Below, in pieces: positions 4,757 to 63,746 of a stretch of 64,000 nucleotides of DNA. The translations under genes and the position numbers were made by a program. Numbering within the stretch: the stretch's first letter is position 1; each line of letters opens with the position of its first letter. Source of the stretch: Sphagnum magellanicum (lineage: Eukaryota; Streptophyta; Sphagnopsida; Sphagnales; Sphagnaceae); assembly GCA_021904315.1 (NCBI GenBank), contig CM038916.1, positions 2,108,001-2,172,000 on the forward strand. Direction: 5' to 3'. A model generated the notes under the pieces. That model saw only the letters and a list, made by a program, of their open reading frames with translations. It made no database searches and was not told the origin of the DNA.

Positions 4757-5300
4757 TCTCCACAGAAACGCCTGCTCCCATCCTTCTTCACTAGTAGAGT
4801 TACCTAACATGCATACTCATAGTTACTAGGCTTCATCTTGCCCAAATCCACCAGGACATCAATCTACCTCTTCACTTTTGCCTCCTCCCAGTAGGATAAT
4901 CGACCAGGAGATACTTTGCAAGGTGGAAACCCCTACATATCCACAAAATGTTCCCCAATAGTGCAACAACCTAGTTCACCCTTGTTCCAAGCAAAAACAT
5001 CTTGGTACCGCTCCAGAACTTTCCAGAATTGTTGTTGTTTCTTTTCATCCAAGCTAGTGTCAATCCTAATTCGTTGACAGATCTCCCTCCATCTAGTGTT
5101 CATTTCATCATGGTTGGATGATGCCAACTGTTCAGTGGGGTTGTAATCAAGGTTGCCATCTTTTGTCTGGAGAACCTACAGCAGTGCTGGGATTGTGGGG
5201 GTGTGGCCTTGGCTGGGTTGCTACATCAAAAGTGGGATAGCTACATCATGTGTGGATTCATACATGGCCTGTCTACTTTGCTCTGCATCAGACACCCATC

Positions 5301-7320
5301 TCAACCAGTCTGCGTAATCATCCGCATCTCTAATTTTTTCTTCCATGAACCGTCAACCTGATCCTGTAATATCAGTTGCAGAATCTCTTGCGGTCCTTCT
5401 AACCTTACCAAATCCTCCAATTCAATATCCCTAAACTCATCCTCACAATCAATTTTTTTCAATTGACGAGACTCCCAATCACAGTATTCACTACCATCAG
5501 TACCAGTATTTGAATATGAGGTAGATGCATCATCTTCTTTGGTCATGACAGTACTATCCTGATTTGGTATCCAGTCATAATCATCATTGATGTGTGTGTT
5601 TTTCAAGATAGTCGTAGCCTCTTGCATCAGAGCTTCTGAGTTCATCCTCTGTAACAAATTCACCATAGTCAATGGCAATACTTCCACATTGGCCCTTGGA
5701 CCATGCCTTACTTGGATTAGCCCTTGTTCCACATCCACAATTGCACCAATCTTTATAAGAAAATCTAAACCAAGTAATACATCATAACTGTCTGTATCAA
5801 CTACCATGAAGGTCATAGTGCATTGCATTCCTCTAACCTTCATTAGTACTTCGTCAATCCTACCAAGGGCATGTGTGACAACTCCTACTGCTATTTTATA
5901 AGTTTCAGATCCAGTAACGAGATGCATTATGCCTAGTTCTCTAACTATAGCGACAGCCATAATTGACATGGAGGCTCCAGTATCCACCAGTCCTTCAACA
6001 ACATAGTTATTGATCTCCACAAGCAAATGCAGAGTCTTGCTTCGATGGGTCTTGTTGATGCAGATCTTCCTCAGTGTTGGAACCGTAGACACCATTGACA
6101 CCTGATTTTTAGTTGCCTCTGAATCCTTTTTTTGCCTTGCCAACCTTACCAAACTTTCAAGGTGTTCCAGTTCCCCTGGAATCATCAGAATGGTTTCCAT
6201 AGGTGAAAGGGAGATCTTTCCTTTTATGAAGTGTGCAAGAATCTTGGACCTGACTGAAGTGTCCCGGTTTGCACCTACTCCATCTCCTATAGCTTCATGA
6301 GTCGGTACAGCCCCTCCTGGTGCTACATCAACAGGAACCCTCCTTCTAGGCATTTGGGTGTAAGAGAAAAGATTCTCATTCCCACAGAGCTTGTTAAGTT
6401 GTTGCATGGTCACCGCTTCATCATTTAACAACACCTCCAAGAAGTTTGTTGTTCCAGAATGTGATTTCCCATCATTGGGCTTCTTCCAACATCTATTTTC
6501 AGAATGCCCTAAACTTGTGCAGAAGGTACATTTAATTCCACAATTCTCTGTCCTATGAGGCATACCGCACTTGGTGCATTTTGGCTACAGCTCATTTAAC
6601 CTTGGACAAGTGGTGGCCAAATGGTCCCCTCTTTTACAGATTTGGCATCCTCCAAATACAGTGGAAGAAAAAGTTGCTTCTGGATTGTGTATAGTCCCCT
6701 TGAAGAAATTGATAAATGTGTTGTTTAATGCAGTGACCTGTTTCTCCATTATGGTTTCTGAGGTCCCCTCTTCTTGTTCCTCTTTAAGAGGTTCATAGGG
6801 AGTCTCTCCAAGCTCGCCCAAAACTCTTTCTAGTTTTGTTGTAGCACCAACTAACTCTTCAATATTTGTAAACGTCCTTACCACACACAATTTTTGAATT
6901 TCTAGCTTCAATCTGGACAGAAATCTTCTTTTCTACTCAGCGTCTTGTATCCTGCCCCTTTGAAACAGTTTGTCGAGACGTTCAAAGTATTTCTGAATTC
7001 TCTCTTTGGGTTTTTGTTTAATGGCATCGAGCTTCATCTTGATGTCATCAGCATCTACGTCCCCATACTTCTGTACTATCAGAGTCCTCAACTCAGCCTA
7101 ATCGGCTAGTGCTGGTTGCAACCTGCTGAACCATTCCTTGGCCTTGCCTCTCAAATTTAGCTTCGTAATCTTGAACAATTTGTTTGCATTCAGATCTCGC
7201 ACCTCAGCAGCCATGGTAAGCTTCTCTACCTAGTCATTGACGTCTTCATGATCTCGTCCCCATAACAGTTCGTCCATCCCTTGGGGGCTAGTCATTTTGC
7301 AAATGTTCAACTCCAAGCTA
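5301..7320 (-). pseudogene. gag and protease region of the Ty3/gypsy element (fossil)
   Basis: Two CCHC zinc knuckles are visible (CQICKRGDHLATTC and CTFCTSLGHSENRC), followed by an aspartic protease with the active-site block VDTGASMSIM. The stretch upstream, to about 7320, has gag-like composition but no recognisable motif. Nothing here is expected to be functional. Confidence 0.85.
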
Positions 7321-20082: not shown

Positions 20083-20103
20083 GGGGGCGGGGGCCAGAGA
20101 CAA

Positions 20104-23100
20104 TTGCGTGTGTGCCTGTGGAACATCCATGGGGCCGCTATCACAAAGCTAGAAACACATGAACATCTGCTTGACCTATTTCAACATGTTGACGTTATTG
20201 CTTTGACAGAAACACATCACTTCTCGGGCGATACATTCCCGGTCTTACCGGGGTTCTACTGTTTTGATGTTGCCAGGCCTGTGACTCCACAGGGTGTCAT
20301 TCGAAAGCACAGTGGAGGCATTGCAGTACTAGTTAGGGAAACATGGGCAAATAGTACTATTGTTTGGAAAACTGCAAGGGATGGGAGTAGGATTTGGCTA
20401 CACTTGGGCAATGCTTTCCAAAGGCCTTTATTCCTGTGCATAGTATATGCTACTCCACAAGGTTCACCATATGCGGACAACAGCCTGTTTGAACACATAT
20501 GCCAAGAGGTTGGAGAAGCCATGAGCTTAGGCGGTGTGCTTCTTGCTGGGGATTTCAATGCAAGGACAAGCACAAACACTGATTTCATTGATTGCAGTCA
20601 ATTAGCAGATGTGCTGCTAGTGCCACAAGCCATTGAGGACACCCTGCCCAGTGATATGCTGGAGCGCCAGAACCGCGACACCATCACGGCTGGTTGGCAT
20701 CATGAGTTCCTGGATCTCTGCAGAACTGCTAGGCTATTCATCCTCAATGGCCGCACACCATGAGACATATCAGGGGAGTACACATGCCTATCCAATAAAG
20801 GCTTTAGCACTGTGGACTATTTTCTTATGACAGCTGACCAATTACAGGGTGTCAAACGCTTAGAGGTTAACTGCGATGAAAAGTACTCAGGTCACAAAGA
20901 TGCACATTTTGATCATAGACCATTGGTACTTACAATCACACAACAGTGGCAACCCCCTCTTGTTCAGCAAAAGGCAATCAAACACCTACCACGTTTCAAA
21001 TATGACAATGCCAAAGCAGCTGAGTTTAGCAAGAGTGTACAACATAACATCGATGTGTGGGCAAGCCCAGATGTACTTGATGCATCTGACGTGCAAACAA
21101 CAGTTAATTTGTTACAACAGTGCATCACACAATCTGCAGAAGAAGTGTTTGGAAATAGACAAGTGGCCTTTGGAAAAGCAATAAAGCATAGCCACAAACC
21201 CTGGTTTGACACAGAATGTCGCCAAACCAAAAGCCAGTTTGCTAAATTGTCACATGTGCACCCAGATAGGCAAGTCAGACTTAAGCAAATGAAACAGTTG
21301 TACAAAAGGAAGAAACGTGCTTATGATGTGCTCAAGGCTAAACAATTATGTGGTTTAGCAAAGGCAGATCCTGTAGCATTCTGGAAGCGATACCGCAAGC
21401 GCGCTGAGGGTGTCAATGGCATCACCAGCGAAGTGCTCAGGGATGGTTTCCAGCAACTGCTCCAGCCTCTAGCAGCACCAGTCACAGCAGGAGCTGTGAC
21501 AGGTGCCGCCATTCAAGCCCAGGTGGTTTCCTTTCCACCCAATGGTATTGATTGTGAACAGTTGAATGTTGACATCACACTAGTTGAAGTACAGCAGGCG
21601 TTCAAAAAGCTAAAACGACACAAAGCTGCAGGCATTGATGGCATCAAACTAGAGTTCCTTTTGGATGCGGCTGTTGCCTTGCAACAACCACTATTGATTG
21701 CTTTTAACAAAATCCTGTGCGAGGGCTATTGTGAATCACTTTCTGTTGGGATCATACATGCACTATACAAAGGGGGTGATTATAGTCAGTTTGACAATTA
21801 CAGGGGGATCACAGTAGGACCAGTCTTAGCCAAGGTGTTTGCAATGATTCTTGAGTCCCGCATGAGTCAATGGGTGGAGACCAATGATTTACGCGCAAAG
21901 GGACAAGCTGGTTTCAGAAAGGACTTTAGGACAACAGATAATCTGTTTATTCTTCGCACTTTGATCGAACAAGCCAGATTTTAGAAAAAGAAGCTATACA
22001 CTTGTTTTGTGGACTTCAAAAAAGCCTTTGATACAGTACCAAGGGACCTGTTGTGGCAGGTGCTGGAGGGACTTGGCATCAGTAGGCGGATACTGGAGTG
22101 CTTACGCTCCATGTATCGTCAAGACCAGGCCTGCCTACACCATCCAGAGGAGGGGTTCACGCCCATTTTCTTCTGCCGCATCGGAGTGAAACAAGGATGC
22201 CCCCTCAGCCCGCTCCTGTTTGGCCTCTTCATAGATGGCCTAGAGAAATAGTTGAATGCTTTGGAGGGTGACACACCACCAATGTTGGGACAGCTAGCTA
22301 TTCGCTTGCTTTTGTATGCAGACGACTTAGCTCTCATGTCACACACTCCTGCTGGATTGTAGAAGCAACTGGATGTCTTGCAAGCTTTTTGCTATGAGCG
22401 TCAGTTGACTGTGAATGTCAAGAAAACCAAGGTTGTTGTGTTTGAAGCACGCAAGTCTGTGTGTCAGGCTTTTCAGTATGAGGGCGAAGCTCTAGAGCAA
22501 CTAAACTCTTTCAAGTATCTAGGTGTTGAGCTGCACGGCACAAAAGGTATGCAAGCGGCAATACAGCGGTTAGCATTGTCAGGGAAAAAGGCAGTTTTTG
22601 CATTGCGGCGCAGATGCGCAGAATTGCGCATCTTTGACCCAGCATTACAATGCCAGCTGTTTAATGCACTAGTCAAACTAGTGCTTAGCTATGGGTGTGA
22701 AGTATGGTTAGACCACATAGCACGCGAACAATTAGAGGTGGTTCATCGGGCTTTTCTGAAGTCGTTGTTGGGGGTCAACACCATGACATCCAGTTACGTC
22801 GTGCTGGCAGAGTTTGGCAGGTTTCCCCTAGCAATATTTTGGTGGCAACAGACCATGCACTTTCTCTCATGTGTCAGTTCTGAGGTACACTCAGATCGCA
22901 TGCTCAGGCTAGCTTATGATGTACAGCTACAGTTGCTTGCAGCCAGGCAACAAGTCTTACTCGGGAACCAGAGTGCTATGGGTAGAAAGAGTCGATTGCC
23001 TACTTGTTGGCTAGCACAAGTAAATGAACAACTGTCGACGTACAATTTGTGCATCAATAACGATCAGCTGCCACCAAGTGTTCGCTTCAAGCAGTTGGCT

Positions 23101-23547
23101 GAAAGGCAATACATTATACACCATCAAGTGGCTACAGCTGACTCCAGTCGAGTGAGAGCCTATCTGGGGTTGAATAGCTCAGCACAGTATGGGTACAAAG
23201 AATACCTCTCCAGGGTAGACAATGCACAGCTTAGGAGAAGCTTGGCACGTTTTCGTTGTGCGAATCATAAGCTGCAGATTGAGCTAGGAAGGCAAGTCAA
23301 GCCAGTGAAGGTGCCGGTGCAGCAACGTTACTGCAAATTGTGTGACTTGGGTGCAGTTGAAGATGAGGACCACTTCTTGTTGGTTTGCCCTACTTATCAA
23401 AGTGTTCGAGAGAGGTTTAGAGGTTCATTGCCACTAACTGCCATCACACCTTTGGCTGAATTACTGAGCTGTCAGCAACAAGGCATCCTTGCTAGATTTT
23501 TAGTACAATGTCAAACTGTTAGATCTGAATTGCTTCATCAGACATAA
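20104..23547 (+). pseudogene. LINE ORF2, AP-endonuclease plus reverse transcriptase
   Basis: About 1,147 codons in the same register as ORF1. No ATG lies at the start; the frame reads on from the ORF1 stop, and a TTG stands at 20104. Endonuclease motifs are CLWNIHG, LTETHH, LAGDFNAR, a STVDYF block and HFDHRP, covering the catalytic Asn, Glu, Asp and His. Reverse-transcriptase motifs are AAGIDGIKLEFL, NYRGITVG, GQAGFRKDFRTTDN, CFVDFKKAFDTV, GVKQGCPLSPLLFGLF and catalytic YADD at 22315-22326. A C-terminal zinc-knuckle-like CKLC-DEDHFLLVCP closes the protein; no RNase H was seen. Stops at 20761 (TGA), 21982, 22249 and 22360 (all TAG) make this copy non-autonomous. Confidence 0.92.
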
Positions 23548-24985: not shown

Positions 24986-25968
24986 TAAGAGCACACCCAA
25001 CAGCACATCTGTCAGTATTTAGCACATCGACTGCGCACATTTCAGTTTCTTCCCCATCCCTTACCCATGAGCATGAAAACATGGACGGTAGAGAGTGAGA
25101 GACTACTCAACTCTCACCACCTGGGCGAATCATTCTCTAGTTGGCCAACGAGAAACAGTAATTCCTCCTACTAGGGCTCGATGAGGGCCCATTTGACGCG
25201 TGCACTTTTCCTGCTACTGGCGCATTAGGGACCTATTATCATGTGCACTTTTCTAAGCCCCAAGCAGTTTCACAGTGTTTTTCCACGGTTTATAATTCCA
25301 AAAGCACTGTACAGGGCCGTATTATGGCCGCCGGAGCACATGCCGGTAGACCTTCGTAATTCTTGCGGTTCCATTAAATACCTCAAATCGCTTTCACTCT
25401 TTCCCCAAAACTGAGATAGCACTTGTGATCTTAAACACAAACTTTGCAAACATTGTCAGTTAGTTCTCTGAAGCTTTGACGAAGTTATTCCTAGAAGTAT
25501 TTTTGGGGGGTTTCAAGACGCTGTAAATGCATTGAAGTACTGATGCAAGCAAATGCATTGCAGGACTGATGCGCTTGCATTTTTAGCTCACTCCTGGTGC
25601 CAAGTGCCAGTGTTCGTGTACTGCTGCTGCTGCAACTGACTGGTTTGATTTCTCTTTTGACCAAGCTTTTTGCTCGTACTAGTGACGAGGAAACTGGTGA
25701 AAGACGCTTAAATCACCAAGAAAACAAAAGGGGGTGTTTTTGAACAGAGCAAGAAGAAGGAAATAAATTAGATGTGCACTAGTCGGAGTTCGAGTATTTA
25801 TGTAGTACAGGCAATAATAAGTTTCTGGTTTGTTTTTGGCAGCTACATTGTTTTAGAAGGGAGGTGCTAACTTACAGTGGTTTTACAAGGGAGCTGCTGC
25901 TGAAGCTGCTGCTATTATCGAGAGTCTTGGATTTTGGTCGAGGGAAGAAACAGTTGCTACTGATCAAA
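24986..25968 (+). other. Upstream region and presumed 5' UTR of the UGT gene
   Basis: No separate gene is seen. A short phrase AATGCATTGCAG/AATGCATTGAAG is repeated near 25525-25570. The reading frame of UGT exon 1 stays open upstream to about 25864 without an ATG. No convincing TATA box could be chosen. Confidence 0.4.
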
Positions 25969-28900
25969 ATGGTGGTGGATTGTGAAAAACCTTACAACCC
26001 ATTATTATTGTTCAGAAGATCAGTTCCTCATGTGGTAGTCTTCCCATTTCCTGCACAAGGCCATATCCGTCCGTTTCTCCAATTCTCCAGGACCTTGGTT
26101 GCCGAGTACGACATGAACGTTACCTTCGTCACCACAGCACCGCACCTGGACAGATGCCGACGCGCGTTGTTGCAGCTGGAAGAAGACGTGAGATTCAAAG
26201 CCCACAGCCGCAATAACATTCAACTGGTTTGTGTCGAAATGGCTGCCGAGTCTGGGAAGACGACCAGTTTTGTGGGTTTGGAGAGAACTGTGCGCAACTT
26301 GCGAGATATTTTTGCAGAGGTTATGAAGGGACTCATCATGGCAGCTTCTTCTTCTTATTCTTCTTTCGTTGGTACTGTTAAGAATCCTCCTGGCGGCGCT
26401 CCTCCAACTACTCATCACTTTGGCCCTCCCTCGTGCATCATCTCTGACATGTTCTTAGGCTGGACCCAGGTTGGTATATTCATCTATCCCAATAACCCTA
26501 ATTTCATGATGATCACTTCGATCTTCAAATGCCTTAACAACTCTAATTTAGCCACGTTTTCACATATGATCTTCAAATTGAATTAACAACTCTAATCTAT
26601 TCATGTTTTTCACTTCAATCTTGAAATGTCTCAACAACTCTAATTTTCATGTTTTCACTTATGATCTTCAAATTGCCTTAACAACTCTAATCTATTCATG
26701 TTTTTCACTTTGATCTTCTAATGCCTCAACAACTCTAATTTTCATGTTTTCACTTTGGTCTTCAAATGTCTCAACAACTCTAATTTCATGTTTTCACTTA
26801 TGAAATTCGAATTGCCTTCACAACTCTAATTTCATTTTTTCACTTATGATCTTCACATGGCCTTAACAACTCTAATTTAGTCATCTTTTCACATATGATC
26901 TTCAAATGGTCTTAAAACAACTTTGATTTCATGTTTTCACTTATAATCTTCAAATGGCCTTCACAACTCTGATTTCATGTCTTCACTCATGATCTTCAAA
27001 TTGCCTTAACAACTCTAATTTAGTCATCTTTTCACTTATGATCTTCAAATGGCCTTAAAACAACTTTGATTTCATGTTTTCACTTATAATCTTCAAATGG
27101 CCTTCACAACTCTGATTTCATGTCTTCACTCATGATCTTCAAATTGCCTTAACAACTCTAATTTCATGTTTTCACTTTGATCTCCAAATGCCTTACTTGT
27201 GAATGATGTGAGACTTGAATTTTGGGAAGAAATTTATAGAGATGTTGAGATGCAAAACCAGGACTCTTTTATTTGAAGCTCAGTGCTTAAGAAGACAATA
27301 TTAGCTCCTATTGCAGAGAGAAGAGGGCTCTTATAAGTTGTGGCAGATTCAACTAACCTCAAAGTTTTTTTTCTCCCCTTTCATTGGAGATCTATGAATT
27401 GTTGCTGTCATTTTGCTATGGCATCCAAACAAGACTACTACCCAGAGAGTAATTTGCTGAAGATGGATCACTTGCTGGGGATGGATGTAGGATGTAGCTG
27501 ATGAATTCAAAGTGCCCAGATACTGTCTTGCTCCATGTGCGACACACTTTATTTCCTTCATGCTTCGACTCCCAGAATGGAATGCACAAGGCCGCATCCC
27601 AGTCCCTGTAGAAATTGATGGAGAGCCATACACAATTCCTGGCCTTCCTCCAATTGCACCCCTTGAGATGGACAGGAATGCGCAAGGAGACAAAGAGGGT
27701 TCTGAGGTCCTCCTTTATCATGCAAAGTGCTTATGGAGAGCTGCAGGAGTGCTTGTGAATAGTGTGTTCAAGCTGGAAGCTAGCATCATCAAGGGTTTAC
27801 AAGATGAGCCTCCCCACAGCTACCAAGGGAATCAGGTGAGTGAGTTCTGGCACCATCAATGTAGTAGGCTAAGTATAGCATTTGATGGCATTCTTGGTTT
27901 TAAGGTCCTGTGGATGGATGAGGGTGGGAGCCTGATGCCACCTGGGTCCGAGAAACTAGGAATGTGCAAACATGCTACCCTTTTTGCTGCAAAAAGGCCA
28001 ACCTGTTCTGTTAGTAAATGCCAGCCTACACCATTAAGAGGATGGTTTATGTCATAGAAGGAATAGATTCTGCATCCATGGAAGCCCTCTAGGGATATTA
28101 TGCGATGGCTCTTAAAATATGAAAGTAAAAAAGGGCAAGTCTTTACATGGTGGTCTAGATGATGCACGTGAGATGCAACTAGACATAGTTGACGAGTTCA
28201 GTGAGGCCAGATCTTGTCTTTCTTATGTCCTAGGCACATACTTCACTTCATTTCACTGTTGGTTAGACTCCCAGAGTTCATGAATGTCCAGGCCTTCATC
28301 CCTGTAAGATTTTCATTTTTGATGAGCTTTTGACAATGTTATGTTGATGAATCATATGTCATGTGTTGTTTTTGGGTTATGGGTTGCTTTTGCAGGTGCC
28401 TAGAATATTGACAGTTGGGCCTTTTCTTGAAGGCATTGGCAACCCAGCTTCAGGGGGGAAACCACAAGTTGCAGAGGATGACAATGAGTGTTTGCAGTGG
28501 TTAAGCAAACAATCAAGGGAGTCAGTCTTGTACATATGTTTTGGGACAGTAACTGAACATGGGAGGGAACAAATCAATGAAATTGCTCTTGGACTTGAAA
28601 GTAGTGGGGCACATTTCCTTTGGGTTGTTAGGGTCCCTAAAGATGAGGAGGGGACAATTGTTGATGTTGCAAAACTCCTTCCTAAAGTTTTCTTGGAGAG
28701 GACCAAAGATAGGGGTTTGGTGTATTTCTCTTGGGCTCCACAACTCCAGATCCTTGCACACCCAGCTATCAAAGGATTTCTAACCCATTGTGGATGGAAT
28801 TCTACTATGGAAAGCATTGCCATGGGGGTGCCTATGATTGCATGGCCCAATCATGCTGACCAAATGGTGAATTGTCGACTATGCGTTGAAATTCTGAACA

Positions 28901-29133
28901 TTGCAATTCCAGTTCAGAAGACAGGTGAGGTATCAGAGATTATTGGACAAAATGAAATGACGAGAGTTGTTCAACTTTTCATGGAGGATGTAGAGATTTT
29001 CCATGCCCTCAAAACAAATGTTCAGGAATTGAGTAAGGTGATGGGAGGGGCACATGCTTGTGGAGGATCTTCAAAAGTGAACTTGGATCTTTTTGTTGAT
29101 GAACTCAATTCTATGACTTTGATCAAGTTGTGA
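25969..29133 (+). CDS. UDP-glycosyltransferase (family 1, PSPG type), three exons
   Basis: Exons 25969-26469, 27491-27835 and 28396-29133 join in phase 0 with GT-AG introns and give about 527 residues, slightly long for the family's usual 450-500. The enzyme moves a sugar from a UDP-sugar to a small acceptor such as a phenolic or terpenoid, in the cytosol. The N-terminal block FPFPAQGHIRPFLQFS holds the catalytic His (residue 32), and CIISDMFLGW carries the conserved SD-F motif (Asp about 160). The 44-residue PSPG box (residues about 395-438, bases 28732-28863) runs from WAPQ through HCGWNS to ADQ. Trp at box position 22 and Gln at 44 favour UDP-glucose. The start was chosen as the only ATG before the conserved sheet. 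The acceptor cannot be told. Intron 1 holds a minisatellite and intron 2 a fossil exon. No break was seen in the coding sequence. Confidence 0.93.
26495..27195 (+). repeat. Minisatellite in UGT intron 1, 14 copies
   Basis: Fourteen diverged units of about 46-48 bp, each with GATCTTCAAATG-CCTTAACAACTCTAATTT and CATGTTTTCACTT-like phrases. Units 8-10 and 11-13 repeat as three-unit blocks, so a higher-order duplication of about 135 bp has occurred. The array starts within about 25 bp of the exon 1 splice donor and fills most of the 1-kb intron. Confidence 0.93.
28180..28308 (+). pseudogene. Fossil copy of UGT exon 2 in intron 2
   Basis: Read in frame this gives DIVDEFSEARSCLSYVLGTY, which lines up with the start of exon 2 (DVADEFKVPRYCLAPCATHF at 27491 onward). 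Similarity continues through the shared GACTCCCAGA to a shared CCCTGTA. It then loses the frame (a TGA follows the DSQSS block). It lies about 350 bp downstream of the live exon 2 in the same orientation. It is either the relic of a tandem duplication including exon 2 or the leftover of a second, mostly deleted UGT copy. Confidence 0.7.
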
Positions 29134-32100: not shown

Positions 32101-33469
32101 ACACAATGTCGATTATTGTCAACCTACAAATGGAAGAGTTGTTTTGGGTGGGAGTTTTGCAATTAGGGTAATTGAGGATAACTCGTTACTATATATGTAC
32201 CTACTTACATATGATATCTATGATACTTACACAGCTACCTAGGTAGTTAATAGTTACCTTGGTAGTATGAGGTGGAAGTAGTAGGGTGTATCACATATGG
32301 TTAATAGTCTTTTTTTCTAGTGAAAAATCGTCAAAGATGATACACATGGGGGGCCCTTGTGGTCACCGTAAAACTATGCCCCAAATTTGAGCCATATCAC
32401 CTAATTTGCTGTGTGACAAGTGACATAATTGTCATCATGTAAAAACTTTAAACCCTAATCTTGGCACTATTTCTATTTTTGTCACTAATGCTTTTAATGC
32501 ATTGGGATTATGTAGGATCCAGTGTACATAACATAATGTTGCAAGATGCATAATAATGATAGTTAAGTTTTAACTGTGTCAAAGGTAGTTATTGCAAGTC
32601 GCAACTTATCTTTTTATGTTTGGAATTGTATTTTTGTTTTTGGTAATCTTATGGAAAGCTTGTGGTTGGATTGGATTTGAGGGTTGAACAAATTTGGGGG
32701 AGATTTGGCAATGGCATACAAGATATGAACAATTGAAAATAAGGTCAATTGATCATTAAGCATTCCCAATGATCAATTGACCTTAAGAATCAAAAGTCCA
32801 TTTTACTTAATGCCCATTACTTAGTTTCAACTTGGGTTTAATGGCACATGTTTTAGATTCCAAAGTCCATGCTACAAATTTGTTCATTTCGACAAGGGTT
32901 CATGTTATGTGACTCAAAAAGTTTTGCCATATAATTGATTATCTTGTGATTTGTCATTCAATTATTAAATAACCTTTCAAGTTTCAAATTTTTATGTGCT
33001 TAAGCTTTGTGTATTAGAATTTAGGGTTTCAACTTTCAAGTTTCAATTTGTGCATATTCCAAGCTTTCCAAAAATCAAGAATAACATTTAGGGTTTTCAT
33101 TTTGGTCTTTTGCATTCTCACAAGTTGTAGCTTTACTTTTTAAGCCTTAATTTTTAAACTTTTAATTCCTTTTCTTTGATTTGTCTAGGGTTTTGATTTT
33201 AATGTTTAAGGTTTTTGACCCCTATTACAAGGGTTAAGGTTTCATGTTGCATCTTTTCTTGATATGTTGCCAAGTAAAATACCATGACCCTTCTCCAAGC
33301 TCCCCATAACTTCAAGTTCATGCTTTTATACCATTTGTCCTTGGTCCCCCAAGATGAAGGTGAGTCATCATCCTCCTCACCACCATCTAATGACAATGCA
33401 CCCATCTTGCTTGATTTAACAACAATTCTTAATGATTAATTCAAGTAGAGTTTTTTCTTAAAAAAGAAC
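29134..33469. other. Long intergenic stretch, no gene
   Basis: No protein-like frame, RNA gene or terminal repeats were recognised. It contains a (CT)n microsatellite at 31514-31538. The last part (from about 32600) is AT-rich and leads into the transposase relic. Confidence 0.45.
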
Positions 33470-38499: not shown

Positions 38500-38790
38500 T
38501 CTACAAACTTCCACTGATCTCCCAAAACCCACTAATCTCCAAATAATCCAGAACCCATTAATCTCCAAATTTCCAAAACCCACTAATCTCCAAATTTCCA
38601 AAACCCATTAATCTCCAAATTTCCAAAACCCATTAATCTCCAATTCCAATACCCACTAATCTCCAAATAATCCAGAACCCATTAATCTCCAAGTCCAATA
38701 CCTGCTAATCTCCAAAGAATCCAGAACCCACTAATTAATCTCCAATTCCAATACCCACTAATCTCCAAATTTACCCATTAGATAACCATC
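38500..38790 (+). repeat. Short-period tandem repeat upstream of the ABCG gene
   Basis: About eleven diverged units of 22-27 bp built on CCCACTAATCTCCAAAT, with alternating TTCCAAAA and AATCCAGAA variants. It ends about 470 bp before the ABCG start codon, so it lies in the promoter region or 5' UTR. Confidence 0.9.
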
Positions 38791-39261
38791 TCCAAAATTT
38801 CCAAAATACAAAATGTCCAGGGATCTGGAGAAGAGTGGTACAGTTGTAGAAATTTGCAAATTGTATTATAATTGAATTCACATGATTATACATGACTTAT
38901 ACCATATAACAGAGTTGCACTTGTTGTTGTTGTTCTTCTTCTTCTTCATCTACTTCAAGAATTCCTAAATCTTCTTCTGCTTCTTCGAATGTCACACAAT
39001 TGTAAGAATATGGTTTTGTTTGCAGAGCTCTCTCGCTCTCTCTCAATATTGTCCCCCATTTTTCTGCCAGTTCCCCCATTCATAGATCACAAGAGCTCAA
39101 CAATCTGAAGAACTTTTCTTCTTCAAACTTGTGTCAATTGGGCCAGATTCAGCTGAAACTTTTTCTTATGATTCCTGTTGTTGTAGTATTGGCAGGGATT
39201 GACTTTGTCATACATGTATTTTGTTGCTGATCTGAGCTAAATTTGGTGGGTGTTGATCAAT
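38791..39261 (+). other. Presumed promoter and 5' UTR of the ABCG gene
   Basis: Pyrimidine- and TTC-rich stretch (38925-38990) ahead of the gene. No TATA box could be chosen with confidence. Confidence 0.35.
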
Positions 39262-42200
39262 ATGGTGCAGCTGCTGAAGAGTAGTAGTACTAGTCATGAT
39301 CATCAGGAGCTGCAGTCAGATGCTGCAGCAGCTCAAGATCCTGTTGCTGCTACTGTTGCAGTAACTGAAGAATCGACAGCTTCTGTCATGCATATTCATC
39401 AGGCTGCTGTTGCTAGTGTTGCAGCTGCAGAATCTGATCATGTGATGCATCATATTCATGTAGCTCCTGCTGCTGCTGCCCTTGCTGTTGTTGCCAGTCC
39501 TAAGCAGCTTGGTGCCTGCATGAGTCCCTTGAGTGAGATTCTAGTGAGAGCTAGAGGTTTGCAGAGTAAGAACCTAGCTGTTACAGCAGCTGCTACTAGT
39601 AGTAGAGATGGAGAAACTGCAGTGTCGTGTACTGCACTAGTAGCTGCTTTGCTCACATGGAAGGATCTCTCTGTCACTGTCGTCGGAAGACCTCAAGCCC
39701 TCTTGCAAAACATTTCAGGTACGACCAAGCTTTGCATTTGTGATCTTCGGACAGTTTCAAGTTTTGCAGAAACCTTCATTATTGACGTCAAGAAACCTGC
39801 ATGCATGCGCAAGATCTCTGTGCATGAACTTGTGTCTATCGAACTGCAGCAGCTCTGTACTGCAGATTGATCAACAAGAATATTGCAAGAAAAAAAACCT
39901 CACTCGCTCGCTCGCTCTCTCGCTCAAGATTTTTTGAAGATCTCATACACTGTAATACGGAAATCAGATTGGTTTGTTGCGTATAAGACCAAATCCTTTT
40001 AGCAGGATATGCGGAACCAGGATCGATTATGGCGATCATGGGGCCAAGCGGATCCGGCAAATCGACAATGCTCGATGCTCTCGCAGGTAAGAAGAAACCC
40101 CGGCTCACCGCTCGAGAAAAAAACCTTCTTGCAAATGCGCCATGTCAAAGGCGCTGAAGATCAAGAACGAACAAGCTCTTGAAACAGAATTTGCTAACTG
40201 ATCGGATTTTGCATCAGGACAGCACTTCACTGCAAGGGTGATCAATGTTGTGTAACTTGTTATTTGTGGCATGTACAGGTAGACTGTCGAAGACGATCGC
40301 TTTGCAGACTGGAGAAATCCTGCTCAACGGACACAGCCGGAAGAACAAAACTATGTGCTATGGAACTGCAGCTGTAGGTTCTAAACTCGAGTATTGCACG
40401 TCTCAAGTCTTGACGTCCAGCTCTCTCTCTCTCTCTCTCTCAGGTTTTGTTCAGCGATTTCTAGACTGGCTCATGATCGACAGAAAGGAGTTTTTGCTGG
40501 TTGAATGTGGGACTGGCTCCTTGGGAAGGAACGTTGCAAAACTACTCCCTGTGTTTTACAATTCGCTAGCTGTTAGTTGCATCATCAATTTTAGTCTATT
40601 CTTGGAGTTAAAGTTACACAATTTTCGCACAAGGGAAGGAATCAACGAGCTCTAATATTCTTGGAGGTCAAGTTCTAGGCAATTTTCTCACAAGGGAAGG
40701 GAAGGGAAGGGAAGGAATCATCATCATCATCCAAGATCAGCTCCTTGTGCGCTTGCTTTGCTTGCAGGCATATGTGACACAATCGGATGATCTGATAGCA
40801 ACTCTGACAGTGAAGGAGTATCTGCACTATGCGGCGGATCTGCGTCTGCCGTCGTCTCATGCGCTGATCACAAGAGCGGAGAAGAGAGAGATCGTGAACA
40901 ACACCATTCAGCAGATGGGTTTGCAGGAATGCGCCAACACCCATGTCGGCAATTGGCACTTGAGGGGACTCAGTGGGGGTGAGAAACGCCGTCTCAGCAT
41001 TGCTCTCGAGATTCTCCCGCGTCCTCGCTTGCTCTTCCTCGATGAACCCACCACCGGCTTGGACAGGTACTACTACTGCAGGCACACTGATCAATCCATC
41101 TTGCAAGACTGCAGATCAGTACTCCATGGAGATCAACAACACTTTGCTTTGAGTGCAGCCACACTAAAACATGAAAAACAAAGCTTCACTAGTTTGAACA
41201 CATCCTATGACTCTTGTTAGTGTGATTGCACCTGCATTGTTTCTGTTGCGTCGAGAACTTTTTCTAGTTGTTTTTTTGATATGTTGTCAATTGGATGATT
41301 GTCCTGGTGGATTGGCTGTTGTAGTGCTGCAGCTTTTTTTGTAGTGACGACATTGAGGAATCTAGCCAGAGATGGGAGAACTGTCATCTCCTCTTTCCAT
41401 CAACCCAGCAGCGAAGTATTTGAGCTCTTCGACAATTTGACACTTGTATCAGGTGCAGGTTGCACCTGATACAAGTGTCAAATTGTCGAAGAGCTCAAAT
41501 ACTTTGGAGTGGCCACAGATGCTTGTCAGGTAAGACATCATACATACAATACCAACACTGTGAAGAAGTCTTGAACTCACAAATGCATAATGAGGGGTTT
41601 GTTTAGATCTTGGAAGCGCACAATATGCATAATTGGGGTCTGTTTTTACCTTGGGGGCTCAATTCACAGATCATTGCAAAGGTGGGGACGATCATCATCA
41701 TCAATGCACATGCATGTATATTGATGCATCATGATGATCAAGACTAGTCCCAGAGATTCTTGAAAACTCAATATGTGATGAAGTTGATTGATTATTAATG
41801 AATTGTTTTGTTTTGTGCAGCATTTTGCAACAGCCGGGTTTCCATGCCCAGAACTCCAGAACCCATCAGACCACTACTTGCTCGCTGTGAATACGGACTT
41901 TGATCAACTCAGGACTGCTCTCCAACAAGGCTCTAATTCAACATGGGCAGTAAGTCTGAACTCCATTGCTCCAAGTTGCTGTTCATCTGGGCACACAATG
42001 CAATGATGCATCAAGGATCTTCCACTCCAACCCTAAACCTATGTTGGTCGCTCCACCTTGTACCCCGTGTAACCTAACCATCAATCTTGTTATCAATTTC
42101 TTGCTCGCAGGATATGGAGAGTAGTAGCATGGACCCACTGGACAGGATGACTGCCAAGCAAGTGGTGGAGATACTAGCAGAAGTGTACCAGAAGAGTGAC

Positions 42201-44386
42201 TATGCAGCAGCCACAATGTCAAGGATTCAATTACAGACTGCAAAAACAGTACATGTTTCTCTCCTGGTTCTTACCCAATCTGTGCAACTGCAGCAGCTGC
42301 TGTGGTCAAAAACACATCCTGCAGGCATCCATTTCAAAACCACTTTGTAACAATTGGGCTGCCAGGCTTGGTTTTTTTCTTAGACTTCCAGATTTGACAT
42401 CAATTGATCTAGGGGGAATGAAAGACATCTTGCAAATTATGTGATATTCTGCAGGAAGGGTTCCAGGTAGTCAAGACTTCTAGTAGAAACTGGCAGCAGC
42501 ATGCAAACTTTTGGACACAATGTTGGAGCTTGACTAGACGTTCCTTCACAAACATGAAAAGAGACATAGGGTATTACTGGCTACGTTCCATTATATACAT
42601 TCTGCTTTCTATTTGCCTTGGTACCATCTATTGGAGGATTGGCTTCCAATACAGCTCCATCTTGGTAAGCAATTTTTTGTCTTGGACTTGAACCAGCACT
42701 AGTCACATTTTATGATCTGATGACCTACCTAGTCAGCAACAGAGGAGAATCAACTTCCAATCTGTTTATTGCAGATGCAAATAGTAGCAGTAGCATGTGC
42801 TGGGTTTTGTGGATTAGGGAAAGAATCAGTGGCAGTTAGATTCATGAATAACTTGAAAGATTTGGTTCTTGTGCAAATGGGTACATAGTCTTCTGGGGTG
42901 TTTGTTACTGATGAAATTGGTAATGACGGCAACATCTGGCAGGGAAGGGCAGGATGTATGGCCTTTGTTGGAGGATTCCTGACATTCATGTCAATTGGAA
43001 GTTTCCCATCATTTGTTGATGACATGAAGGTGACACATACATCACTCTTGCTGTTATTCATTTTTCTTCCAAAACTCAACTTCAAACATTGTCTTGTTTT
43101 GAGTGTTTGACTTCAAAAACCCAGCCTGCCGCTCGCTCATGGAAGATGATGTTCATCACCATCATATATATAGACGTGAATTTCTGAGATGAGATTTTGT
43201 CTATGCCCAGGTGTTCAGTCAGGAGAGAATGAATGGACACTCTGGAGTGATGGTGTTTGTGATAAGCAACAGTCTTTCATCATTGCCTTTCCTCTTCTTC
43301 ATAGCCTTTGTTTCAGGCTCAATCATCTACTTGATGGTGCAATTGCATCATGGATTTGACCACTACATCGACTTTGTCCTTCTCCTGTTTGTCGAGCTAG
43401 CATGTGCCGACAGCCTGATGATGGCAGTTGCCAGTGTTTGTCCAAGTGTTCTGGTTGGTATTTTAATTGGATCTGGCATTCAGGTATGTCAATATGCCAC
43501 CACATCAAGAGCTTTCTAATCCACCCATGTTGCACTCTTTTTCTTATGTGTTACATGTTCTCCACCCATCTGTAAAATTTTGGGGGTTTAGAGTTTTGGG
43601 TTTTGGCAGATGATGGACACCCATTTGATCATAGCTGGTGAAGAAGTAACGCTGGTGGGATAGCTCAGAACTTGCTGAAAAAAAATTGTCTACTGGTGGG
43701 TTGCATGAGCAGGGGTATTCCTGCTGATGTCTGGATTTTTCCGCTTACCCAGTGATTTACCAAAACCTGTTTGGCGTTATCCAACATCATATTTGGCTTT
43801 CCACATGTATGCAATGCAGGTATCATCAATTAGCAGCTTCCATCTCTCAGTAGGTCCTCCAGTTGCTGCCCCAGCCTGCTTTCTTTCCATCTTGAATATT
43901 CTATGCAGTGCTTGGACAAGCAAGCAACAGAATGAAAGAATTATACTGGAATCTCATTTCATTATCATCACATGATGGGCAGCATTCTGGGTGCAGGGAA
44001 TGTTCAAGAATGACTTTCTTGGGCTCACATTTGGCAGCTTTATCTTGAATGGAGACGCCATAACTTCAAAAATTCCTGGATATTATGTGGTAGAACAGAT
44101 TTATGGAATCCAAACCAAGCGCGGGAAGTGGATGGATCTTGGCATCCTGTTGGGCATGATCTTCATGTACCAACTCCTGTTTTTAATTTGCATCAAACTG
44201 AATGAAGACTTTCAACCACTTGTCCATTCATATATGATGCCATATCGTACCAAGTCTACATCTTCTAAGAAGATCAAGCACAAAAAGTACTCGGACTTAT
44301 GTCAAGCTGGTGGAGTGTTGATACCTGCCACTTCCTCTCCCAGCCTCTCACCATTTTTGCATTCTTCACATGCATCCAAGAATTGA
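39262..44386 (+). CDS. ABCG half-transporter (white-brown complex type), 12 exons, probably disabled
   Basis: Exons by GT-AG and phase: 39262-39718, 40006-40086, 40279-40373, 40768-41066, 41325-41529, 41821-41949, 42111-42248, 42455-42664, 42943-43029, 43211-43483, 43713-43819, 43997-44386, about 820 residues. ABCG half-transporters dimerise in the plasma membrane and use ATP to export lipids, cutin or wax precursors and similar compounds. Visible parts are an Ala/His-rich N-terminal extension of about 130 residues, Walker [10 protein letters not shown] (exon 2), a YVTQ Q-loop and signature [16 protein letters not shown] with Walker [13 protein letters not shown] (exon 4), H-loop [15 protein letters not shown] (exon 5), and membrane segments in exons 8-12 including [12 protein letters not shown]. 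Resemblance is to the ABCG11/12 group. Two faults exist: a 44-bp palindrome in exon 5 puts TGA in frame (41446-41448), and exon 11 is one base short of phase, next to a G run. An ATG 12 bp upstream (39250) is also in frame. Confidence 0.85.
41414..41504. repeat. Perfect 44-bp inverted repeat inside ABCG exon 5
   Basis: Arms 41414-41457 and 41461-41504 are exact reverse complements over 44 bp, separated by only GGT. The left arm encodes the conserved [14 protein letters not shown] stretch, so it is the original. The right arm is an inverted copy occupying the place where relatives have a few residues before YFG. The inverted copy brings a TGA in frame. Confidence 0.97.
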
Positions 44387-47300
44387 ACAGATCTGGAAAG
44401 GGAAGTAGGTGCAGAATTGTACTTTGACAATCTCTGCCAATTATTTTTACCCAATTCACCCATTTATTTTATTTCACTGGGAAATCACATTGGAGCAAAT
44501 TTTCTTTACACCAGGATCAAAATTTTGATTTTCCAACTTTCCAAAGAAATACTAAAAAAAATCCAATTATCTGAAATCGTTTCATAATATTATGAATAAT
44601 TCAGAAGCTGGAAGCATATATCATTATTGACAGAAACCGTATTGAACCCTATTCCTCGGATATTCTTCTTGTTACTGTACATGGGTCAGTACACCTTTGA
44701 GACTAAATTTTTCTTTTGCAATTCTAGTACCTTGAGAGTTCTATACAAAATGCCAGAGACATATGGATTGTCATGAGGAGCAGATCTTGTGTTTTTGCAT
44801 TAGATTGTTTATTTTATGAACTGAAGAAACGCCTTGAAACTTATTAAGGGGAAAATGCAGAGTCATTTGATCATTAGATTATTACGCAAATTCAACAAAC
44901 TTGTCAATATAAGTAAATTTTGTCAATATTATTATTCATCATCCGAAGTATTTTGTGAAAATACTAGCCATAACCTCACTTTTGAAATATAATTCTAAAT
45001 TTTTTGACGTTGTGACATGTATGAATTTGTTTTGAAAACCCTTAAATTCCAAAATCCTTATCATTTGTTAATTCTTCATTTCAGATCATTAACCCAAGTT
45101 TCAAAGTAATAGAATATTCATAAAATCCATTATTCACAAGAATAGTTACTCAAATTTTATCCACCCTAGTCAACAAAAAAGATCAAACCTCAAAAAACTA
45201 ATAAATCATGAAAACTTGTTTTTTTTAAAATCCATAATGTGCTTTCACCCAAACATAATTATCATTATTTTGACAAATGCAACATGAAATGGCGAATAAT
45301 TTGTCGCTTGGTCATGCATGATGATGGTCTCTCAACAAATGAAAGGGGAAGGGATGAAGCCAAATCCAATTAGCATTGGGAAAGGGCTTTGGGAATTTGC
45401 ACTAGTTAGAAATTGAACAATGGATCAAGAAAATTTGTGCTATATTTTTAAAAGGTTTTTTTCCTCCTTAAATCCACTCACAATGAATTTCATCATCCAG
45501 ATTCAGAGAACTCCATCTGTATAGGGACATGGGTTATATATTAATTGTAGCAAACACATACATACAAGTGTAGAGAGCCCTTGTGACTTGTGGTAGCTTT
45601 GCAAGCATAGTAAAGTAGGAAATGAAATTACCTATGAACACACACATTAAGACCATCCGGAAATACGCAGCACATTTGTTTGAAGCTTGGACCTAAATCT
45701 TAAACCCTAAAACCCTAAACCCAGTGCAATGCAGCCAGGGCCATCTGTGGCCTCACCATCTATGGCACCACAACAGCAATGTACCCTCCTATATTGTTCA
45801 GGTTATATAAGTTATAATGGAGCCCAAGGAAGTCCATAGTCCATAGTCCATACCAATGTTGGGTGGCTATCAACTTTGGAACATACCAGCTGGTACTGGT
45901 ATCAAATCTTTTCCAAAAAAATCATACCAGAAGTTACTGCTATGGGACTCGTTCTAAACTTTTGTAACTGCCTGGTTGTGGTGTGAGGTCCTAGTCCTGG
46001 TATTAGGGTCCAAGGCTGATTTTTCGCTGGTATATGATAGGTATATATCAGTGTTAGGAGGGTATCGGGTTTAAAGGGTAAAACTTGGGGGTTCAGGGTC
46101 AGGTTCTTGTGACTTGAACCTGAGTGAGTTGAGATCATTTTGCTGGAATTAGGATAAGAACTGGACCATGGAGAAAATGTTTTACTAGATTCAAAACCAG
46201 AATCGGAACCTTGAAAAAATATCTTTGAAAACAGGATCAGGATATTTATATATAAGTTAATATGTAAACTGAACTTTATAATGAAATTTTAATTTTAATT
46301 AGTTGTTCAACTCTATATTTATATAGATCCCTATTTTAATCTGTTGAAAAACTTTGTACTCACATAATCTTTAGCATTGAGCAATGTGTACATGAAATTG
46401 GCTCCAGTTCGAAAACCAGGTCTAGAGGGTCTTGAATTTGAAAAAAATGTGATAGAATCAAAACTGAAGGGTTCAAAGCTTGGAAGAACCTAGCTCAAAC
46501 CCTTACCTGGAGAACCTTCACATAAATTTTAAAATGTCAAAACCTAATCAAAGGTTCTCTCAAAAAGGAAGTACCACTCAACATTGGTATATACTTGATA
46601 TTGGGATTAATATGGTCCTTGTATTAAATTGGTATTAGGGTAGAAGGGTCAGTGAGCGAACATTTAAAAACTAAATCTTTTGGAGTCCAGTAATTGTGCA
46701 TTTTTTTAATAGGTCTTCAAAGAGTTTAGATGCCCCTTCAACCATAGCACAACTAGGCCTTTATAGCATTTGATTATGAGCTCAAATGATGAGAAAGTTA
46801 TGACCCCCCAAAATGAAAGGGGTCTTGTTGTTTGAAAAAGTTGGATAGAACACATTAAATTCTTATTTTCATGCATTTTATTACCTGTGAACAAACATTT
46901 GAAACCTTATGCCAAGACACTTGTCCTCCTATGAACATAAGTTTAATAATTTAATTAATTGTAGACTTCTTTTTTTATTATTGTTCAATTTTTTTTTTAA
47001 ATTTATTATCGTTCAAATAAGTCCAAATATTTGCAATAGTAGCCAAATAGTCATGAGGCATTTTGGGTTTTGAATTAGGGATCTTCTAAACATTAACTAA
47101 TACCTTAAAATCAATGACCTCGATGACACCACTTCGGGTAATCTACAATTTTCTCCCTATATTTAAAAGAAGAATGTTACAACATTGTTGCCATAATTAT
47201 TTTTAGAATCTAGATCTTTCCTTGCCTCTCTTTCTTGTCTTTCTCCCTTGGGTTTATTTCAAGCTTTCCTTCTCTATCACTCTTTCTCTCTTTGTCTCTA

Positions 47301-57649: not shown

Positions 57650-58960
57650 ATCATGGAGTGCAAGCTTGGAGTAGGTTTGCAACAAGATAGAAGCACATCA
57701 AATGTTATCTTGAACACTTGAGAGCATTGTTGAGCTCGCTAATGCTCCAAAGAGCATTCTTTAGTAAGGGTTTTATCTTTCCTATGTTTTTTGATAGGCT
57801 ATTCACACTTGGAGTTTTCGAGAGGTCTGTAGAAAACTTGGTCACTTGTGAAGAATTTTCAAAGGCACTTGAGAGCTAAATAAACTTAATAATAGAAAGA
57901 ATAGTCTTGGAACCATTTTAGCTCCAACCATGGCACCTAGGAAGGTATGAAGAATGTTCAATGGAATGTTGAATGTTCCATTGAACATTACAAAGCTTGG
58001 GGGAGGTATATAGGAAGCTCTCACACTTGTCAAGTGCTTTCGAGATCATTTGAGAGTTCAAGAGAGCTTGAGATATCTAAAGTGCATTTTTGATTTTTTA
58101 TCAATGTCCTTTCCTATAATGCCACTTTCAGTAGGTCTACAACAAGATCAATGGCACATTGATTTCTCTCCTGAGCATCTAAGAGCATTCTTGAGCTTGT
58201 TGGTGTTCAAGAGGGCATTCTTGAGTAAGGGTTTTGTCTTTCATTAGTTTCTTGATAGGCTATTCACACTAGGAGTTTTCAGGAGGTCTATATAAAGCTT
58301 CATCACTCGTCAAAAGCACTCAATAGCTCAACCGACCTTGTAGTAAATTTTTTTTCTTGGAATGGTTTTTGCTCACAACATGGCGCATGGAGAAAGCATT
58401 CTTGAGCTCACTAGTGCTCAAGAAGGCATTCTTGACTACCCTAGAACATTCTTGAGCTTGAAGGTGCCTAAGAGAGCATTCTTTAACAAGGGTTTTGTCT
58501 TTCTTATGTTTCTTGATAGGTTATTACACCAGGAATTTTGGAGAGGTATGTAGAAAGCTTGTTCAACTATTGAGAGCTCTAGAGGGCACTTGAAAGCTCA
58601 ATAGACATAGAAGTAGAGAGAATTTTTTTGGAAGGGTTCTTGTTCAAAACGTGGCACTTGGAAAAGGTTTGCAAAAATCTCAATGGAATGTTGAATGTTC
58701 CATTAACCATTACAAACCTTGGGGAAGGTATATAAAAAGCTCCAACATTTGTTGAATGCTCTCAGAGCATTCGAAGGCTTAAGAGATCTTGAAATATTCA
58801 GAATGGATTTTAGGTATATTTTTCAATGTTTTTTCTTAGAGCATCATTTGTTATAGGTCTGCAGCAAGATTAATGGCACATCAATTACTCTCCTTAGCAC
58901 CTGAGAGCATTTTTGAACTCGCTAGTGCTCAAGAAAACTCCCTAGCACTCAGGAGAACTC
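57650..58960 (+). repeat. Long-period degenerate tandem repeat
   Basis: Three irregular units share the same ordered phrases: GGTCTACAACAAGATCAATG (57672, 58133 and 58857 regions), GGGTTTTGTCTTTC with TTTCTTGATAGGCTATT (57770, 58230 and 58490), GTTGAATGTTCCATT (57968 and 58690), and many copies of AGAGCATTCTTGAGCTC. Period varies from about 460 to 720 bp, so whole units and sub-blocks were duplicated separately. No protein is encoded. Confidence 0.8.
57953..57989. repeat. Hairpin inside the long-period repeat
   Basis: Arms AATGTTCAATGGAA (57953-57966) and TTCCATTGAACATT (57976-57989) are perfect reverse complements of 14 bp with a 9-base loop. A second, partly decayed copy is at about 58678-58710 in the next unit. 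Confidence 0.85.
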
Positions 58961-61598: not shown

Positions 61599-63746
61599 TC
61601 ACCAGCAGTCTCTGCAAGAACACTCACCATCCTGAAAGTGATGAAAGCGATTTGCATCCCTCACCATGATAGCTCTACCAACTACTTTTGAAATGAATTT
61701 TGTGGATGTGTGGCAATCACGACAAACCCGCAGATTCTTTCTTATGCGGAGTGGAGTACCAGGTGCTGAGTTGATAAGCCCAAATGCAATAGCCAGTTTC
61801 TCACTATGATGACACAAATGAAACACCTTTTCTTCTTCCTCCACATCATGTAGCACAAAATTAGTATCTGGCACATATCCAGCATCATGCATCAGCCCTG
61901 ACAACCTCTTCAATTCTGCATGGATTTCTATCATCTGAGGGTGGTGTTGATCATCTACTACAAATGTATGCACCTCATTATCCACTTCAATCCAAGTGCG
62001 ACCTGGTTGTTTCTTCACACTTCTTTCCTTTCTCTGCCGTTCAATATTTTCGCTGAGATCCCTGTTACCAGTGGCAGTATATAAATTTGATAGCAGCACA
62101 TAGCCTGCAGCATTTTCAGGTTCCAGTTCAAGAACTTGTTTGGCAACTCGTTCTCCCATCTCCACATTGCCATGAATTCTGCAAGCACCAAGCAAAGCCA
62201 TCCAAGCAGCCACCTGTGGTTTGTAGGGCATTGCCAATACCATATTCTCTGCCTCATGTAGACGGCCAGCACGGCCAAGAAGGTCAACCATGCAGGTGTA
62301 ATGTTGCAAGCTCGCAGAAATCATGTAAACTGTACTCATTGAAGAATAAAAGCGCAGGCCTTCATCCACCAAACCTGAATGGCTACAAGCTGACAGCAGA
62401 CAACCAAAAGTGGTATCATCTGGCTGTACACCTTCTTCACGCATCTGTTCAAACTGTTTAAGTGCTTCCTTACCATGCCCATGGATGGCATATCCTCCAA
62501 TCATGGCATTCCAAGTGACCACATCTCGAGATGGCATGTTGTTGAACACTTTCAGAGCATCTTCCAAGCTCCCACATTTTGCGTACATGTCAATCAAGCT
62601 ATTCCCTACAAAGACAATTGAATCCCACCCACTTTTAATAACCCAGTCATGAGCGCGCCTGCCCTCTTCAAGTGCAACTACACTTGCACATGCATTCAGC
62701 ACTCCCACTAACGTGACAGGGTCTGACTGCACACCTTCCTGTTGCATTTGTTGAAATAGTTCCAGTGCCTTCTGCCCTTGGCCACATTTCACATGCCAAA
62801 GTATCATCACATTCCAAGAGACCACATCACGTGATGGTAGCTTGTTGAACACTCTTTTAGCATCCTCTATGCTCCCACATTTTGCATACATGTCAACCAG
62901 GCTACTCCCCACAAAGACATCTGACTCCCACCCACTTTCAATAATCTGTTCATGGGTGCACCTGCCCTCCTGAAGTGCAAACATACTGGCACATGCATTC
63001 AGAACTCCGATGAGAGTCACAGGGGTTGGCTGCACACCTTTCTGTTGCATTTGGTGAAATAGTTCCAGTGCCCTCTGCCCTTGTCCACACTTCACATGTC
63101 CCGATATCATTGCATTCCAAGTGACCACATCTCGAGATGGCATGTTGTTAAACACCTTGCAAGCATCTTCGATGCTCCCACATTTGGAATACATGTCAAC
63201 CAAGCTATTCCCCACAAAGACATCAGCCTCACAACCGCTTTGAATTATTTCTTCATGAACTTTCCTGCCCGCTTCAAGTGCTCGTAAACTAGCGCATGCA
63301 TTGAGCACCGGAACAAAAGTGAAATGGTCAGGACTCATGCCTTTTTGTTGCATTTCTTGGTAAAGCTCAAATGTCTTCTCATGTTGCCCAGCCTTCACAT
63401 ATCTTGCAAGCCTTCTGTTCCAGGAAAACATGTCCAATTGTACAGTCCCCGGTGCCATTGCAGCAAGCTCTGCTCTCACCCACGTGGGGTTTTTCCGGTG
63501 CACAAGCCAGAGTGCGTCCTGTGTATGTTTATGCTTGAAATCCGGGTAGTTCGAATTCACCTTCTCCGGTCTACAATCCCACCACTGCGAAGGATCTGAA
63601 AAGAACTGCCACCAGAGTTTCTCTATACGACCTGCTGCTACGGCGCGAACATTTCCACCCGAAGAAGTTGCGAGCGCTCTGTGGCTCCAAGTTAATATAT
63701 GTCGTAAGCGGCATGATTCAAAGGTGAGCCGATGGCATTCTGCCAT
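61599..63746 (-). CDS. PLS-type PPR protein with N-terminal PDF motif and C-terminal E and DYW domains
   Basis: An intronless 715-residue frame. DYW-type PPR proteins bind chosen transcripts in mitochondria or chloroplasts and deaminate C to U. Twelve repeats run P-L-S four times from residue 106 (MFSWNRR), with near-identical 101-residue blocks (VFVGNSLVDMYSKCGS, VFVGSSLVDMYAKCGS, VFVGNSLIDMYAKCGS). E1 and E2 follow, then the PG box (QPGRTWIEV, about 580) and the DYW deaminase with HSE (His647, Glu649), CRDC (Cys675, Cys678) and the second zinc site ending CSC (Cys709, Cys711). The last three residues are DCW, not DYW. Residues about 44-94 (FFSDPSQWWDCRPEKVN, then YPDFKHKHTQDALWL) match the PDF motif of OSB organellar single-strand DNA-binding proteins. 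The first ATG is used; residues 1-40 are Arg/Ser/Ala-rich and could be an organelle transit peptide. No break seen. Confidence 0.95.
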   Translation of the reverse strand: MAECHRLTFESCRLRHILTWSHRALATSSGGNVRAVAAGRIEKLWWQFFSDPSQWWDCRPEKVNSNYPDFKHKHTQDALWLVHRKNPTWVRAELAAMAPGTVQLDMFSWNRRLARYVKAGQHEKTFELYQEMQQKGMSPDHFTFVPVLNACASLRALEAGRKVHEEIIQSGCEADVFVGNSLVDMYSKCGSIEDACKVFNNMPSRDVVTWNAMISGHVKCGQGQRALELFHQMQQKGVQPTPVTLIGVLNACASMFALQEGRCTHEQIIESGWESDVFVGSSLVDMYAKCGSIEDAKRVFNKLPSRDVVSWNVMILWHVKCGQGQKALELFQQMQQEGVQSDPVTLVGVLNACASVVALEEGRRAHDWVIKSGWDSIVFVGNSLIDMYAKCGSLEDALKVFNNMPSRDVVTWNAMIGGYAIHGHGKEALKQFEQMREEGVQPDDTTFGCLLSACSHSGLVDEGLRFYSSMSTVYMISASLQHYTCMVDLLGRAGRLHEAENMVLAMPYKPQVAAWMALLGACRIHGNVEMGERVAKQVLELEPENAAGYVLLSNLYTATGNRDLSENIERQRKERSVKKQPGRTWIEVDNEVHTFVVDDQHHPQMIEIHAELKRLSGLMHDAGYVPDTNFVLHDVEEEEKVFHLCHHSEKLAIAFGLINSAPGTPLRIRKNLRVCRDCHTSTKFISKVVGRAIMVRDANRFHHFQDGECSCRDCW

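Follow-up and report, generated by a model that had tools for sequence, protein, structure and literature searches.

The sequence of a predicted ABCG half-transporter gene in Sphagnum magellanicum suggests that exon 5 was disrupted, in the living plant, by a single fold-back templated insertion. We give this reading a probability of about 0.77, irrespective of whether the insertion was made at a stalled replication fork or during the repair of a double-strand break. It draws on a palindrome found in the 64 kb of DNA analysed here, which is referred to below as the window and to which all coordinates refer, and on comparison of the encoded protein with its family.

That the palindrome is present in the sequence, and lies far above chance expectation, is confirmed. 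The original prediction was of two exact 44-bp inverted arms with a 3-bp spacer inside exon 5, and all 44 of the 44 positions of the arms (100%) are indeed complementary around the spacer GGT (Table 1). The first position outside the arms (41413 and 41505) is a G/T mismatch, the second, C/G, pairs again, and the predicted fold includes both of these outer positions. When perfect arms with a spacer of no more than 20 nt were sought throughout the window, the runners-up had arms of 18 nt (32740–32785, the window's second longest perfect close inverted repeat, with a loop of 10 nt) and 14 nt (57953–57989), while the longest arms in five shuffles within 500-base blocks were 9, 10, 11, 11 and 11 nt. 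By rough arithmetic that assumes equal base frequencies, the number of 44-nt arms with such a spacer expected by chance in 64 kb is below 1e-20. The 111-nt palindrome region is predicted to fold with an energy of -54.4 kcal/mol as DNA and -84.2 kcal/mol as RNA, and for DNA and RNA alike none of 200 shuffles folded as stably.

Table 1. Coordinates, in the window, of the predicted ABCG gene and of the elements of the palindrome in its exon 5.
Feature	Position	Strand	Remarks
Predicted ABCG half-transporter gene, 12 exons	39262–44386	+	Pfam ABC_tran and ABC2_membrane; TIGR00955
Predicted exon 5, containing the palindrome	41325–41529	+	Splice sites by GT/AG and by-eye homology; exon limits are those of the model only
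Left arm	41414–41457	+	44 nt; ABCG coding sequence (14 residues); exact inverted repeat; proposed template of the copy
Loop GGT between the arms	41458–41460	none	3 nt
Right arm	41461–41504	-	44 nt; proposed copy of the left arm in inverted orientation
In-frame TGA, codon 359, inside the copy	41467–41469	+	Predicted reading frame
33 bases equal to the net excess	41467–41499	+	Assumes that the two preceding codons are native; the palindrome blurs the exact left border
TACTT, shared between the close of the copy and the first five bases of YFG	41500–41504	+	Probable return point

The exon borders of the host gene model were picked as GT/AG and by eye for homology, without transcript support; the presence of GT-AG at 11 of the 11 introns is therefore no test of the model, as the borders were selected to have it. 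The predicted protein displays the domain order of an ABCG half-transporter, in which the ATP-binding domain (PF00005) precedes the membrane domain (PF01061), and contains motifs at codons 165, 279, 300 and 336, HQP among them, which we take to be the Walker A, signature, Walker B and H-loop sequences, respectively. The first part of the protein matched NCBIfam TIGR00955 with E = 1.2e-75 and 255 bits, which is below the whole-protein cut-off of 736, and the piece encoded by exons 11 and 12 scored 17.1 against PF01061, again below the cut-off (26.9). Pfam returned no family for the 52-residue piece that begins at YFG, and the exon 10 and exon 11 pieces of the membrane part each gave 0 matches, at E up to 10, in a search of solved structures. 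A single open reading frame does not extend across both domains, as it is broken by the TGA at codon 359 and, when the strongest donor is used, is off by one at the exon 10/11 junction; every other predicted exon is open in its own frame. Neither a second ABCG copy nor a second copy of the arm was found in the window with seven peptide pieces and the arm as queries, the best matches outside the gene having E = 1.4 (peptides) and 1.7 (arm). Upstream of the gene, at 38530–38780, there is a run of short degenerate repeat units that read, by eye, like 'cccactaatctccaaat'.

Of the two arms it is the left that carries the family sequence, as had been foreseen, since it lies in the ABCG frame and aligns with both ABCG2 and TIGR00955. 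Read on the plus strand, the right arm contains TGC ACC TGA; on the minus strand it encodes the ABCG peptide, which tblastn recovers at 41508–41461 (16 residues, 93.75%). Thus, it is the right arm that is the copy. The amount of sequence that was added can be estimated from the family. Alignment to the solved structure of ABCG2 leaves an 11-residue gap precisely at the insert, a residue-level comparison with one protein, as the best five of the 359 matched sequences are all ABCG2 chains. Against TIGR00955 the left piece stops at profile position 242 (the G of SG) and the right piece begins at 247 (the Y of YFG), these positions being the ends of local alignments, and the four profile positions between them (243–246) correspond to 15 codons between SG and YFG in the window. 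The two comparisons agree on a net excess over the family of 11 codons, or 33 bases, matching the 33–36 bases, added in frame and with a TGA, that had been proposed. The copy would thus mostly add sequence, given some four profile positions against 15 codons, and the further suggestion that the right arm replaces a short stretch does not hold in that form. The net deficit in span relative to the query was 8 residues for CDR1, 13 for ABCG25, 14 for ABCG8, 15 for ABCG5 and 21 for ABCG1, figures in which other gaps are counted. The 11 residues are absent from distant family members (ABCG2 and TIGR00955) in a comparison made at the protein level, and the pre-insertion sequence is inferred from such distant protein relatives only. 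A prokaryote contig collection yielded at least 595 pattern matches, 582 of them encoding relatives of the ATP-binding part; the 80 that were kept, at 36–54% identity, were judged too remote to be informative on the stretch before YFG. Viral contigs, queried with the left portion of exon 5, gave 32 pattern matches, none of which encodes a relative.

The end of the copy is equally informative. Its last five bases, TACTT, complement the AAGTA with which the left arm begins and also open the codons TAC TTT GGA of YFG, with the next position mismatched, so that the predicted arm ends, and the coincidence of TACTT with the YFG codons, are both found in the window. Beyond TACTT the 10 family residues from YFG onwards resume in the original frame. 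Agreement of five given bases would occur by chance with a probability of 4^-5, about 1 in 1000, a figure that is uncorrected for the choice of length. Of the signs that the second turn was guided, we regard the TACTT overlap as the strongest, and a two-turn event can be followed in the sequence at both of its turns.

The proposed sequence of events is as follows. Having just copied the left arm, a growing 3′ end would have folded back through the short self-complementary stretch around GCA-GGT-TGC, and would then have copied its own strand for about 33–44 bases, up to AAGTA. The new end, now terminating in TACTT, would have re-paired with the TACTT of the YFG codons, allowing synthesis to continue. 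These steps could have occurred at a stalled replication fork, through an intrastrand template switch of the four-point model, or through fold-back synthesis at a double-strand break that was sealed by end joining, two routes that are indistinguishable by sequence alone. The fork is slightly more likely, a lean that reflects the fact that the family length is otherwise about kept. The original prediction invoked replication template switching; the class of event fits, as judged by the direction of the copy, the in-frame gain of 33 bases and the five-base TACTT overlap, but the route is inseparable from synthesis at a break.

Single inverted repeats can arise from intra- or inter-strand template switches (PMC7954356, PMC8794818), and fold-back insertions, mostly about 5–34 bp with some exceeding 150 bp, are recorded at a yeast break (PMC11724301). 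The palindrome combines an exact reverse complement of adjacent sequence with a defined return point, two of the features of a four-point switch. It resembles short-range events of this kind (four-point, quasipalindrome-type) in having one inverted copy of neighbouring sequence, a short loop, a switch back to the original strand and perfect arms. It differs in that the ancestral sequence is approached through distant protein relatives, and in that the copy is longer than the coding examples described in yeast, which have arms of 8–16 bp and come from a study that excluded insertions (PMC8604942). Indeed the length of the copy (33–44 bases) is large in comparison with reported cases, which argues against fold-back by both routes. 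In the available portions of these sources, the great-ape template-switch model takes a mean copied length of 10 (PMC7954356), and template-switch-like patterns of up to 59 bp were seen but failed the quality control of that paper (PMC8794818).

Repair of a double-strand break, in which a resected 3′ end would snap back and pair over a few bases, a polymerase such as Pol theta or Pol delta would copy the upstream strand and TACTT would anneal across the break, can be put forward as a tentative alternative to the fork, its probability being a share of that assigned above to fold-back insertion. From what is available of PMC11292364, Pol theta can begin stem-loop synthesis with no more than two end bases paired, mammalian cells are reported to carry inverted templated insertions of 3–30 bp, and plants are among the organisms with templated insertions. 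Similarly, yeast fold-back insertions have 0–5 bp in common with the other break end (PMC11724301, likewise in part), a range that covers the five-base return seen here. The palindrome is similar to insertions made at breaks by Pol theta or Pol delta with respect to snap-back priming, the inverted copy of a flank and the match of 0–5 bp at the far end. The copied length of 33–44 bases, however, exceeds the mammalian range of 3–30 bp, and the loop of 3 nt is shorter than the 6 nt that is most favourable in Drosophila (PMC11292364) or the 41 nt reported in yeast (PMC11724301), according to the same portions of text. The break itself is hypothetical, and loss of the ends has left no clear sign, the length of the family being otherwise about kept, although one or two codons may be lost. 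The far turn has its five-base match; how strong the seed was at the near turn would be set by the native codons before YFG. By either route, fold-back insertion would be a known kind of event, of which this is a new example.

The TGA at codon 359 lies between the ATP-binding motifs and the membrane domain. The expected outcome, in the predicted reading frame, would be a transporter truncated after its ATP-binding domain, so that the allele would be null or a pseudogene unless the stop is bypassed by splicing. Past codon 359 the next stop is at codon 663, at the exon 10/11 junction. At this junction (43483–43713) the strongest donor (43483, GTATGT) joins exon 10 to exon 11 one frame off; a second, tandem donor lying 4 nt further on (exon end 43487) preserves the frame and is among the donors of the 10 frame-keeping pairs listed. 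TIGR00955 runs across the junction without a gap, residue 285 of the 289-residue exon 10 piece being at profile position 507 and residue 2 of exon 11 at 513. This irregularity may reflect another lesion, an error in the consensus or splicing at the tandem donor. In the first case, the gene may have been a pseudogene before the palindrome arose; in the second, the likelihood that the palindrome is also an artefact is slightly raised.

It could be argued that the palindrome was generated during assembly, library construction or amplification, as a fold-back chimera that entered the consensus, an alternative that the original prediction also named. Chimeras with inverted repeats or palindromes are a recorded problem of short-read libraries (PMC10908179) and are recorded also for long reads and amplified DNA (PMC12870357, PMC6218980), in each case in the part of the source available. 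An artefact would produce perfect identity, and the same gene has the second frame problem at exon 10/11. A simple fold-back, however, would be expected to turn once and not to come back, whereas the present sequence re-enters the same exon at YFG and in frame, which makes an artefact less likely. Such a structure also occurs only once in the window, and the 715-codon frame of a PPR protein at 61599–63746, the one long uninterrupted gene examined, is unbroken, so that the consensus is not obviously poor. We therefore view an artefact as unlikely; were it the correct explanation, the palindrome would serve as a useful warning for gene annotation.

Perfect identity of the arms had also been taken to mean that the event is very recent. 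Recent origin is possible, but identity provides a bound only, of a few million generations. If the arms change independently, the 88 unchanged sites give a 95% bound on age of about 4.9 million generations at an assumed rate of 7e-9 changes per site per generation, of 11.4 million at 3e-9 and of 1.7 million at 2e-8; correction of one arm by the other would loosen this bound.

The fold-back step would, in addition, have made a perfect 44-bp RNA hairpin in a coding exon, with arms that match the ABCG segment. If this hairpin were transcribed, Dicer-like cuts might generate small RNAs that silence related ABCG genes, although we consider such an activity improbable. In its predicted fold the region offers the hairpin precursor of a MIRNA locus. 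The likeness to the inverted-duplication origin of plant MIRNA genes lies in a coding segment that is inverted beside itself, so that the RNA hairpin it gives matches the family of the gene it came from; the difference is that the arms, of 44 nt, are within a coding exon and not at a separate locus, and that the hairpin is a predicted fold. Literature searches on de novo miRNAs from template switching returned coronavirus work only, and those on plant exon inverted duplications with premature stops returned, in the portions of text available, nothing on point.

It is highly improbable that the palindrome is instead an old hairpin, for example a regulatory RNA element, held perfect by selection or by repeated correction between the arms. 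The RNA fold is very stable, as noted above, but Rfam gave 0 matches at gathering scores across 39000–44500, the palindrome breaks the frame of a gene whose other exons are open, and a mutational origin requires no selection. Scarcely credible, too, is a new mini-intron that removes the copy and about keeps the length of the protein, its donor lying within or next to the loop and its acceptor in the right arm. The donor CAG/GTTGCA (exon end 41458) and the acceptor TTGTCGAAG/AGCT (exon start 41492) would excise 33 bases exactly, leaving the in-frame peptide ..LVSGAELKYFG..; yet exon 5 has 16 listed in-frame donor-acceptor pairs, so that one which fits is unremarkable, and 33–39 nt falls short of the minimum length usual for plant introns.

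Elsewhere in the window, 2432–6584 on the minus strand contains open frames of a Ty3/gypsy-like retroelement, for which RVT_1 and RNase H were identified by Pfam at 3922–4644 and the remainder by eye. Long open frames at 20083–23547 on the plus strand resemble, by eye, a LINE-type endonuclease and reverse transcriptase and are interrupted by stops; Pfam gave 0 matches to the piece at 20764–21984. A UDP-glycosyltransferase gene is present in pieces at 25783–29133, with UDPGT assigned by Pfam at 28351–29133 and the remainder by eye. The PPR protein at 61599–63746 has E and DYW deaminase domains and a C-terminal CRDCW.

Fold-back insertion in exon 5, if real, would offer a plant gene in which a single-step event can be read cleanly at both turns, and would make it testable which pathway produces such events in plants. 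A perfect 44-bp hairpin in a coding exon would also be a first step toward an inverted-duplication MIRNA gene, and would allow one to test whether small RNAs are made from a hairpin newly formed in a coding exon, which the inverted-duplication model for the origin of plant MIRNA genes requires. If small RNAs that silence related ABCG genes were indeed made, the locus would represent a plant microRNA or hairpin-siRNA gene at birth, arising via template switching and not by gene duplication.
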